Assembly: GCA_021769425.1 (NCBI GenBank)
Contig: JAETSX010000002.1
Location: forward strand, 1-64,000
Source of the DNA: Eubacterium sp.
GTDB taxonomy: Bacteria; Bacillota; Clostridia; Lachnospirales; Lachnospiraceae
Reading direction: 5' to 3'
Length of the DNA stretch: 64,000 nucleotides
Shown here: positions 1,015 through 30,693 of the stretch, piece after piece
How the letters are laid out: every line of letters begins with the position of its first letter
Numbering within the stretch: position 1 is the stretch's first letter
Notes under the pieces: model-generated
The model's database searches: none
Told to the model about the DNA's origin: nothing
What the model saw: the letters and a program-made list of their open reading frames with translations, nothing else
Made by a program: the position numbers and the translations under genes

Positions 1015-3493
1015 CTACTTTCCTACATTGTTTATCGCCGCCTGTGCTGCTGCCAATCTTGCAATCGGTACACGGAATGGTGAGCAAGAAACATAGTCCA
1101 AACCAATCTTATGGCAGAACTCTACGGAAGAAGGATCTCCGCCATGCTCGCCGCAGATACCGATATGAAGGTTCGGATTAACCGGTTTGCCCAACTTGAT
1201 TGCTGTTTCCATTAACTTACCAACACCAGTCTGGTCAAGTTTTGCAAATGGGTCATTCTCAAAAATCTTAGCATCATAATATGCCTCTAAGAATTTGCCG
1301 GCGTCATCACGGGAGAATCCGAATGTCATCTGTGTCAGGTCGTTGGTGCCGAAGCAGAAGAAGTCAGCCTCTGTTGCGATTTCATCTGCGGTAAGCGCAG
1401 CTCTTGGAATCTCAATCATAGTACCTACTTCATACTCTAATTCCACACCTGCAGCAGCGATTTCTGCATCAGCAGTCTCTACCACTACTTTCTTTACATA
1501 TTTTAACTCTTTGATATCGCCGATTAACGGAATCATGATTTCCGGTTTCATATCCCAGTCTGCGTGAGCTTTCTTGACATTGATAGCTGCACGGATCACT
1601 GCGCTTGTCTGCATTTTTGCAATTTCCGGATAGGTAACTGCAAGACGGCATCCACGATGTCCCATCATCGGGTTAAATTCATGGAGAGAATCAATCAATG
1701 CCTTGATATCTTCTACAGATTTGCCCTGAGCGTCTGCCAGCTTCTTAATATCTTCTTCCTCAGTAGGAACGAACTCATGCAATGGCGGATCCAGGAAACG
1801 GATGGTAACTGGATTGCCTTCCAGAGCTTCATATAACTTCTCGAAGTCTCCCTGCTGATACGGAAGGATTTTAGCCAGGGCGGCTTCTCTCTCTTCTACG
1901 GTATCTGCACAGATCATTTCACGGAATGCTGCAATTCTGTCCTCCTCAAAGAACATATGCTCGGTACGGCAAAGACCAATACCTTCTGCGCCCAATTCAC
2001 GTGCTTTCTTAGCGTCTGCAGGCGTATCTGCATTAGTGCGAACCTTTAAGGTTCTGTATTTATCCGCCCATGCCATAATTCTTCCGAATTCCCCTGCAAT
2101 AGTTGCGTCAACAGTGGGAATCAGGCCGTCATAAATATTGCCTGTGGTTCCGTCGATGGAGATAGGATCTCCTTCATGGTATTCTTTGCCTGCCAAAGTG
2201 AATTTCTTATTCTCTTCGTCCATAGCAATGTCTCCGCATCCGGATACACAGCAAGTTCCCATACCACGTGCAACAACGGCTGCATGGCTGGTCATACCGC
2301 CGCGGACAGTCAGGATACCCTGAGCAGCTTTCATACCTGTAATATCCTCCGGAGAAGTTTCAAGACGAACTAATACGACTTTCTCACCTTTTTCTGCCCA
2401 TGCCACAGCGTCATCTGCGGAAAATACGATTTTACCACATGCGGCTCCCGGAGAAGCGCCAAGGCCTTTTCCAGCAGGAGTGGCGGATTTTAATGCGGCA
2501 GCGTCAAACTGGGGATGCAATAAGGTATCCAGGTTACGGGGATCAATCATGGCAACTGCTTCTTCTTCAGTTCTCATGCCTTCATCTACCAAATCGCAGG
2601 CAATTTTCAGAGCAGCCTGAGCCGTTCTTTTACCATTACGTGTCTGAAGCATATAGAGTTTCTCGTTCTCCACGGTAAATTCCATGTCCTGCATATCTCT
2701 GTAGTGATTTTCCAAAGTAGCGCAAACCTCTGTAAACTGTTTGAATGCTTCCGGGAATTTTTAATGCCATGCTCTGTACATTTACAGCAGTGCCCCAGGA
2801 ATATGGAATATCATTGTCACGCCGGTATACATTTGCGCGGGGGTTGTCCCAGGAACGGAATACAGCTTTTACTGCTCCCATTAACTGTTCCTTCGGATCA
2901 TCTGGGAAATCCTCTCCTATTTTCTCTTTATATTCAGCTTTAAACTGAGATGCAAGCTCTTTCAGATCGTCTGCTGTAAGTTCAACGTCCTGTGTCACGC
3001 CTCTGTCAGCTTTCATTTTATCAATCAGTTCTTCAAAATATTTCTTACCAACTTCCATAACTACGTCAGAATACATCTGGATAAATCTTCTGTAGCAGTC
3101 CCAAGCCCAACGGGGATTCTGGGATTTTTCAGCGATTACATTTACAACTGTCTCATTCAGACCCAGATTCAGGATGGTGTCCATCATACCAGGCATGGAT
3201 GCCCTTGCACCGGAACGCACGGATACAAGAAGAGGATTTTCCTTATCGCCGAATTTCTTTCCTGTAATCTCTTCCATTTTACCGATGTACTCATTGATCT
3301 GTGCCTGAATTTCTTCATTAATCTGACGTCCATCTTCATAATACTGAGTACATGCTTCTGTAGTGATAGTAAAACCCTGTGGTACCGGAAGACCTAAGCT
3401 GGTCATTTCAGCAAGATTTGCGCCTTTTCCTCCAAGAAGTTCACGCATATTTGCATTTCCCTCTTCGAAGAGATAAACCCATTTGTTTGCCAT
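1015..3493 (-). pseudogene. ppdK: Pyruvate, phosphate dikinase, broken by deletion and frameshift
   Basis: PPDK interconverts pyruvate, ATP and phosphate with PEP, AMP and diphosphate in the cytoplasm. The start (3493) has a good TAGGAGG site. The first part (3493 to about 2765) gives a normal N-terminal nucleotide-binding region up to VNVQSM. The reading frame then shifts, and the second part (about 2765 to 1015) resumes at PEAFKQFTEV and runs to a normal C-terminus, with the phospho-histidine motif GGMTSHAAVVARG and the active-site GICGEHGGDPSS. Against the 874-residue Clostridium symbiosum enzyme as I recall it, about 52 residues are missing at the join, including the GTGVAFTRNPSTG loop and the NAQGEDVV motif. 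In the downstream frame a TAA lies just before the join. The product should be inactive unless this is an assembly error. Confidence 0.9.
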
Positions 3494-6490: not shown

Positions 6491-7279
6491 CTATTGATTT
6501 CTTGATTTGGAAGAAATTCCCCTGATTTGTGCGGCAAATCCTTCGTTTTCTTCCAATATCTGAAGAGAATGAAACTTCCGCTCTACGTAAAACGCCATAT
6601 ATTCATTCATAATATCTTCCAGGTTCTCCAGAACGGTTTCTGAGACTGTGAAGGTATACAGTTTTTCAATGGTGGACGTTATGATATACTGCATAGCATA
6701 AAGGGTGGAATCGTCCATGGCTCTGCTTTTTTCCCGCCCTTTGCAGTTATCGCAGAGCGCGCCTCCGGCTCTTGTGGAAAACCAATGAAGATTCTCTTCT
6801 GTTTTGCATGACAGGCAGGAGAATACATTGGGGTATTCTCCGTTTACCGTCATGGTTTTCAATTCAAAAATCCGGCGTACCAGCCGGTTGTCTAACGTCC
6901 CCTTTTCCAGCGCCCGGAGAGACTGGTAGAGAAGTTTTAACATATGTATTTCTTCTGTATTTTCTCTGGCGTAATAATCTGCCAGTTCCAGAAAGTAACA
7001 TCCATAACAGGCATTTTCCATATGCTCTGCCAATTCCCGGAAATAGTTGGCGATGTCCGCCTTGACGATGGTATACGAGCTTCTCCCTTCGTAAGTCTCA
7101 AAACTGCCGAAGGAAAAGGGGCTGACGGCTGCCATCAGCTGATTGCCTGGCCGCCTTGCGCCTCTGGCAAAGGCGGAAATTTTACCTCTTTCCTTCGTCA
7201 GCAGCACGACTCTCCTGTCATATTCTCCCACCGGGGCTGCGGATAATACCATGCCCGTCAGCGTTATGGTCTGCCCCAT
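6491..7279 (-). CDS. recO: DNA repair protein RecO
   Basis: RecO helps load RecA on SSB-coated single strands in the RecFOR recombination pathway. The 262-residue protein has the N-terminal OB-fold (about residues 1-80, with the typical KERGKISAFARGARR), a helical middle and a C-terminal zinc site formed by CLSC and CDNC at about residues 150-185. It follows era and a YqzL-like gene on the same strand, the same order as in Bacillus (era-yqzL-recO), which supports all three calls. Confidence 0.95.
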   Translation of the reverse strand: MGQTITLTGMVLSAAPVGEYDRRVVLLTKERGKISAFARGARRPGNQLMAAVSPFSFGSFETYEGRSSYTIVKADIANYFRELAEHMENACYGCYFLELADYYARENTEEIHMLKLLYQSLRALEKGTLDNRLVRRIFELKTMTVNGEYPNVFSCLSCKTEENLHWFSTRAGGALCDNCKGREKSRAMDDSTLYAMQYIITSTIEKLYTFTVSETVLENLEDIMNEYMAFYVERKFHSLQILEENEGFAAQIRGISSKSRNQ

Positions 7280-7433
7280 TTCTTCTCACGCTCCCGCTTG
7301 TCTGCTCCTGGTCTGCCATCATTGAGAGGGTTGCGTCTCCTCGGACTCCCTCTCCGCTCCCATGGCATTTGTAAGTTAAGTAATCCTGAATGCTTCCTGT
7401 GCTTGCAAATTTCGTCCACTCCTGCGCTACCAT
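7218..7433 (-). CDS. YqzL-like small protein with long tail
   Basis: A 71-residue frame between era and recO. Its first half, EWTKFASTGSIQDYLTYK, resembles YqzL, a short protein of unknown function that sits between era and recO in Bacillus. The start (7433) has CAGGGGG about seven bases upstream. The family is usually near 45-50 residues. Here an extra tail reads into the first 62 bp of recO in another frame, and the DNA coding for it holds a GAGAGGG/CCCTCTC stem. The tail may be a recent extension by frameshift or insertion. The gene is likely; its C-terminus is doubtful. Confidence 0.5.
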   Translation of the reverse strand: MVAQEWTKFASTGSIQDYLTYKCHGSGEGVRGDATLSMMADQEQTSGSVRRNGADHNADGHGIIRSPGGRI

Positions 7434-7536
7434 TTGGATGCCCCCTGTTCTTCGTTTGTTTCTTACAGTCTGCTGTCATTAATATTAGGGTATCCTTTCA
7501 GTTTCCAGATATACCAGATAAATTCTGGCAGAAATC

Positions 7537-19731: not shown

Positions 19732-20049
19732 CTATTTACTCTCTTTTTCTACTGCATCTTCCGGCTTCTCTACCATTGCAATGGATGCTTTCTGCATGGG
19801 GATACGACAGTTCTTGTTATTTCCAAATTCCATAATAACAGTGTCTTCTGTAATATCAATGACCATTCCGTAAAAGCCGCTGGTAGTTAATACGGTATCT
19901 CCCACCGCCAAATCTGCCAACATTGCATTCTTTCTCTTGGTCTCCTTTTGCTGCGGACGTATCATCATGAAATAAAGAGCTACCAGCATGATTAAAATCC
20001 AGACGATGGAAAATCCGGCCGCCGCTTCTGTTTGGGCTAAAATAGACAT
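19732..20049 (-). CDS. yajC: Preprotein translocase subunit YajC
   Basis: Accessory membrane subunit of the SecDF-YajC part of the Sec export machine. The 105-residue protein has one N-terminal membrane helix (IVWILIMLVALYFMMIRPQQK), then the basic stretch and the small soluble domain with GDTVLTTSGFYGMV typical of the family. The start at 20049 (MSILAQ) has AAGGAGG upstream. It follows tgt, the widespread tgt-yajC order. secD and secF do not follow here; a terminator does. Confidence 0.93.
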   Translation of the reverse strand: MSILAQTEAAAGFSIVWILIMLVALYFMMIRPQQKETKRKNAMLADLAVGDTVLTTSGFYGMVIDITEDTVIMEFGNNKNCRIPMQKASIAMVEKPEDAVEKESK

Positions 20050-20207
20050 TATTCGTTCCTCCTTATTGTCTATGTCTTTTGGACAGACACTTATTTTATT
20101 GTACACAAAATAGCAGATAAGGGCAAGTGATTTTCCAGGATTTATAAAAATTTTAGCATTTATATGGAAAAAATCCGGACAGGCCGTATGATTTCCGATT
20201 CTGCATT

Positions 20208-30303: not shown

Positions 30304-30567
30304 CTAACCCCAGCGATTACTCTGAATATACCGGCGCAGAATCTCTTCCACCAGCTCGTCCCGTTCCACTTTCATAATCAGGCTTCTGGCATTGCGGTGA
30401 CTGGTAATGTACGTAGGGTCTCCTGACATGATGTAGCCTACAATCTGATTTACCGGATTGTAGCCCTTCTCCCGCAGGGCGCTGTAGACAATTTCCAGTA
30501 CGTCATCCACCTGTATCTGCTGTTCTTTTTCCACTTTAAAGTATTGAGTATTGTTTTTATCCTGCAT
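30304..30567 (-). CDS. ireB: IreB-family regulatory phosphoprotein (UPF0297)
   Basis: An 87-residue cytoplasmic protein. In Enterococcus, IreB is phosphorylated by the Ser/Thr kinase IreK and adjusts cephalosporin resistance. Conserved features are the N-terminal TQYFKVEKE stretch, [31 protein letters not shown] and a C-terminal RYIQSNRWG. It is the first gene of the run that reaches to the lactonase gene and has a strong promoter about 130 bp upstream. Its ribosome site is weak. Confidence 0.93.
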
Positions 30568-30693
30568 TTTTCCCGTCCTTGTTGTATACAGTCACCCTGG
30601 ACACTCTCCATCTGAGCATAAAACACCATAGATGCAGCTGCCCATAAGTGACTGCTTGATTGCTCTTTCGTTCTTAGAATATTTCTTCTTTCT

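Follow-up and report, generated by a model that had tools for sequence, protein, structure and literature searches.

A 155-bp gap in the single-copy pyruvate phosphate dikinase gene of a Eubacterium genome: a probable young null allele

Near the start of a contig in a draft Eubacterium genome, the minus-strand gene for pyruvate phosphate dikinase (PPDK, ppdK) runs from an ATG at position 3493 to a stop at position 1015, split into two open frames. This arrangement raises the question of whether the strain has lost the enzyme or whether only its assembly has lost part of the gene. Here, we analyse the first 64,000 bases of this 124,262-bp contig (C57; hereafter, the window), which belongs to a genome of 4.9 Mb, and compare the locus with relatives and with other genomes of the genus. 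A sequence-only reading of the window had proposed a deletion of about 52 codons together with a frameshift at a single join, where the two parts meet at about 2760–2770. Alignment with the intact ppdK of relatives bears this out: 155 bp (51 codons and 2 bases) that 28 of 28 relatives carry are absent here. The gene was probably disabled by a true deletion in the strain, a reading that we favour over an assembly artefact.

Architecture of the split gene

On the gene strand, the join reads GGCATT followed directly by AAAAATTCCC, with the break between window positions 2763 and 2762. Because 155 bp amount to 51 codons and 2 bases, the reading frame shifts, and the codons touched number 53 (244–296 in the numbering of the relative L012). 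Past codon 243, the upstream frame continues for 42 wrong residues, ending at 2636. The sequence-only reading had followed the upstream frame to VQSMALKI before it goes out of frame and had seen the correct frame resume at PEAFKQF with a TAA three codons before it, both of which we recover. A short A run is present at the join. The coordinates are collected in Table 1.

Table 1. Coordinates of the split PPDK gene and of the features at its join
Feature	Position in window	Strand	Description
N-part ORF	2636..3493	-	285 aa: 243 correct codons (first part, nucleotide-binding domain) and 42 out-of-frame residues
C part, correct frame	1015..2760	-	End of nucleotide-binding domain, mobile (central) domain, PEP/pyruvate domain
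Longest C-part ORF	1015..2715	-	566 aa, from a TTG start at 2715
Join	2762..2763	-	155 bp of relatives absent; no shared bases, judged by eye from relatives
TAA of downstream frame	2761..2763	-	Created across the join
AGAGG	2727..2731	-	11 bases before the TTG at 2715; weak, putative ribosome site for the C part

Matches to family models place both parts within the same enzyme. Against the NCBIfam model for pyruvate, phosphate dikinase (TIGR01828), the N part aligns with model positions 1–242 (362 bits) and the C part with positions 309–865 (894 bits); the C part thus exceeds the cut-off of 843 bits alone, although its match starts only at model position 309. A functional PPDK would be expected to cover the whole model in one frame of about 875 residues, and here there are two frames. 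Pfam matches PPDK_N in both parts, and the nucleotide-binding domain (PF01326) is incomplete, the best stretches covering domain positions 74–175 in the N part and 281–325 in the C part. The mobile (central) and PEP/pyruvate domains are present in the C part (PF00391 and PF02896).

By alignment, the lost stretch corresponds to residues 244–296 of a solved PPDK (9pzl), inside the nucleotide-binding domain, and it is largely invariant across 25 relatives, as in the motifs TRDPATG and NAQGEDVVAGVRTP. The earlier suggestion that an ATP-grasp loop had been lost is therefore right as to the ATP-binding domain and too narrow as to the extent: the missing piece spans about 53 residues, carries conserved motifs and is more than one loop. 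For Flaveria PPDK, one report gives residues 1–340 as the nucleotide-binding domain and names Arg95 and Glu324 as directly involved in ATP binding (PMC5507339). Judged by position, the counterparts of these two residues would here sit on separate chains, that of Arg95 in the N part and that of Glu324 in the C part.

Relatives, copy number and constraint

The DNA alignment comprised 28 relatives (L006–L030 and L032–L034; L031, with just the gene's later portion on its contig, was omitted), and every one of them has 155 more bases between window positions 2763 and 2762. Identity to the 13 closest relatives is 87–93% in DNA and 96–99% in protein for the N part, and 87–91% and 98–99% for the C part, so the two-part match to PPDK is not due to chance. 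With one genome taken per species, the window's own genome is the only one of 29 in the genus to show the join pattern; none of the 28 from other species has it.

To place the break in its gene neighbourhood, we compared ORFs of at least 100 aa from stretches of four relatives (L116–L124) with the window. This gave 67 same-orientation matches at 60% identity or more, grouped into 24 places of the window (1018 to 30570), and in 20 of these a single uninterrupted piece covers at least one relative ORF to 90% or more. The other four are PPDK, 7221–7463 (81% of a 100-aa relative ORF), 19735–20085 (89%) and 30307–30570 (51%), the last being where synteny ends; the stretch of a relative that comes next after the compared region (L119) had no match in the window at the thresholds used. 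Apart from PPDK, each of these four is in one piece, leaving PPDK as the only one of the 24 places, over about 30 kb compared, that lies in two pieces in two frames. Judged from this synteny, the PPDK gene is at its orthologous place, and a frame-breaking difference at such a place is what a pseudogene would show.

No second PPDK was found in the assembly, and the N part, searched against the genome, matches this locus only. Two weak matches of the C part elsewhere in the genome were considered as a second PPDK and rejected: both lie in one 564-aa frame on contig C130 that is a PTS enzyme I (TIGR01417, 613 bits; cut-off 342). A search of the assembly for the missing piece, using 159 nt of L012 spanning the loss, gave a best E value of 2.36 (20 bases) for DNA and 0.69 for protein. 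The lack of a real match anywhere else in the assembly argues against an intact copy having been left on a different contig. No mobile element was seen in the gene, where the alignment has a plain gap.

The age of the break was bounded from changes unique to single tips, in a set of ten sequences: the window plus the nine relatives left after L007, L010, L011 and L013 had been removed from the 13 closest as near-duplicates. In PPDK, 21 silent and 3 replacement changes are peculiar to the window, against a joint 139 and 11 for the other nine sequences (Fisher p 0.41). Both parts retain the look of sequence under selection, and the tip changes give no sign of relaxed constraint; together with the identities and the correct frames, this agrees with the earlier view that the rest of the gene is intact. 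Had the gene been unselected over the whole tip branch, about 55–75 replacement changes would be expected beside 21 silent ones. A simple model puts the unselected part of the branch at no more than 8.5–11.5% (95% upper bound; roughly 9–12%), varying with the assumed transition rate. The break is therefore recent or not real, the same two options that the sequence-only reading had put forward. The constraint data fit a recent deletion and an artefact equally well.

Deletion in the strain or fault in the assembly

We propose that a 155-bp deletion would have removed part of the nucleotide-binding domain and shifted the frame of a formerly normal, single-copy ppdK, leaving a null allele, or young pseudogene, in the sequenced strain. 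The deletion would then exist in the chromosome itself rather than just in the assembly, and active PPDK would not be made. That this deletion is real is, in our assessment, probable. The alternative, that the strain's ppdK is intact and that 155 bp were lost through the assembler or a chimeric read, is possible although less so. Such a fault would leave the rest of the gene with normal constraint and would fit a single such break in the roughly 30 kb compared. It would also be in keeping with a draft assembly of 228 contigs (97.44% complete, 1.91% contaminated), with a gene that ends about 1 kb from the contig end, and with the presence of PPDK, whole or in part, in most genus genomes, those without it all being less than 90% complete. 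Against a fault stand the unbroken state of the compared neighbour genes, the absence of the missing piece elsewhere in the assembly and the join itself, which has no overlap able to cause a false merge. By eye from the relatives, no bases are common to the two sides of the join, unlike contig ends falsely merged by overlap. As to the mechanism of a deletion, of deletions of this length in L012, 58% would share no bases at the join and 42% would share at least one; a zero-overlap join is therefore common and says little. All 25 relatives compared at the join have an ATGG three to four bases ahead of the left break, and 22 of them have one ahead of the right break too; slippage between these copies just before both ends may have helped the deletion. 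A hairpin across the lost piece was considered and discarded, as codons 241–300 of L012 have a fold energy of -51.0, not unusual beside 200 mononucleotide shuffles (mean -54.2, sd 4.3).

Readings in which the split gene still serves a function are far less credible. The C part (about residues 312–875) might be made from its own start and retain the PEP/pyruvate half-reaction or act as a phospho-carrier; we regard this as very improbable. Its 566-aa frame is intact, with the mobile histidine domain (PF00391), PF02896 and a score above the TIGR01828 cut-off in its own right, it has a TTG start with AGAGG upstream, and replacement changes are few. The youth of the break explains the constraint equally well, however; the ATP reaction needs the nucleotide-binding domain, from which stretches invariant in 25 relatives are lost, and a TTG with a distant, weak site is in our judgement probably a poor start. 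It would likewise be surprising if the C part had become a free-standing PEP/pyruvate-histidine domain protein that moves phosphate back and forth between PEP and pyruvate or donates it to other proteins, PPDK having turned into a new phospho-carrier while glycolysis ran via pyruvate kinase. Least probable of all is that ribosomal or RNA-polymerase slippage near the join, where the short A run lies, reunites the two frames, as the rejoined product would still be without conserved residues of the nucleotide-binding domain and full activity would be unexpected.

At the very start of the contig (window 1–110), there are several copies of a CCGGAAT..CGGTA-like motif, which we take to resemble the end of an insertion sequence, perhaps of IS21 type; these insertion-sequence-like motifs may be why the contig breaks off at about 1 kb from ppdK. 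Positions 240–900 are marked by long runs rich in purines or in pyrimidines, along with weak direct and inverted repeats, and no gene there is convincing. An rRNA or tRNA at the contig end was also considered: no tRNA was found in the 64-kb window, and the relative stretch L116 had no Rfam match at the gathering threshold.

Metabolic setting and known counterparts

Under the favoured reading of a deletion, PEP would be converted to pyruvate by pyruvate kinase and the sugar phosphotransferase system, and the reversible PPi-linked PPDK step would be lost. The sequence-only reading had expected such a loss to matter for PEP/pyruvate flux and had advised a search for a second ppdK or a pyruvate kinase. 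The concern is reasonable, given that no second ppdK turned up, but it is tempered by two pyruvate kinase genes: a full-length one on C51 (583 aa; TIGR01064 607 bits, NF004978 754 bits) and a shorter, pyruvate kinase-like one on C56 (405 aa; TIGR01064 324 bits, cut-off 306). Pyruvate kinase is found in 29 of 29 genus genomes, so loss of PPDK is survivable in principle. In a pyruvate-kinase-bearing anaerobe, ppdk is reported as not essential (PMC6997586). For Clostridium thermocellum, another report states that single deletions of four putative PPi sources, including the Ppdk-malate shunt, had no significant phenotypic effect (PMC8863071). Loss of PPDK need not halt glycolysis, and lethality would not be expected.

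The shorter pyruvate kinase-like gene (C56:22500–24100; L132:201–1418) contains a tandem in-frame peptide repeat made up of two full copies of ERLSLRGMGDEKCQWQPQE and one partial copy. Pfam matches the gene in two separate pieces, and the same holds for the second copy in four relatives, G014, G018, G025 and G028. The genome also encodes a divergent ATP-PEP carboxykinase-like protein of 559 aa (C228:5500–7700; L131:176–1855), which may offer a route to PEP. It scores 75 bits with PF01293, above the Pfam cut-off, and its best NCBIfam match, NF006821, reaches 135 bits (below the cut-off of 369). Across the genus, this weak-scoring type occurs in 19 of 29 genomes and the canonical, high-scoring type in 9; one genome has neither, and none was seen with both.

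PPDK, whole or in part, is present in 24 of the 29 genus genomes, the exceptions being G005, G010, G016, G017 and G020 (63–88% complete). Among the six genomes at 80–90% completeness, four have no PPDK (G005, G016, G017 and G020) and two have it (G001 and G021). The absence from those four is perhaps beyond what incompleteness explains, through true losses or contigs missed near repeats. In a wider draw from the family, at least 262 of 299 genomes had a PPDK match at E 1e-100. The PPDK regulatory kinase (PF03618) was found in none of the 29 genus genomes, and its absence from the window genome is therefore uninformative.

Brucella ovis offers a comparison in which ppdK has likewise been put out of action, in another phylum and, by the title of the report, through laboratory disruption; we liken the two by description (PMC7427901). 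If the deletion is real, the window documents a natural loss of ppdK in a genus that usually has both PPDK and pyruvate kinase, and so a small natural test of doing without the reversible PPi-linked step; if it is an artefact, it bears only on the quality of this assembly. Among known systems, both parts are PPDK over the correct length, of the TIGR01828 family with solved structures 1kbl, 1dik, 2r82 and 9pzl, which are presumably from Clostridium symbiosum. The gene is intact in close relatives; the window gene differs from it in that 53 codons of the nucleotide-binding domain are touched, the frame is broken and two separate ORFs result. Short frame-breaking deletions make young bacterial pseudogenes, and the window gene shares with these one sharp apparent deletion, an otherwise constrained sequence, a syntenic place and a step that is dispensable in others, showing nothing distinctive beside them. 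Either way, the broken PPDK is not a new kind of thing: an ordinary gene-breaking deletion is most likely, if it is not an assembly fault.
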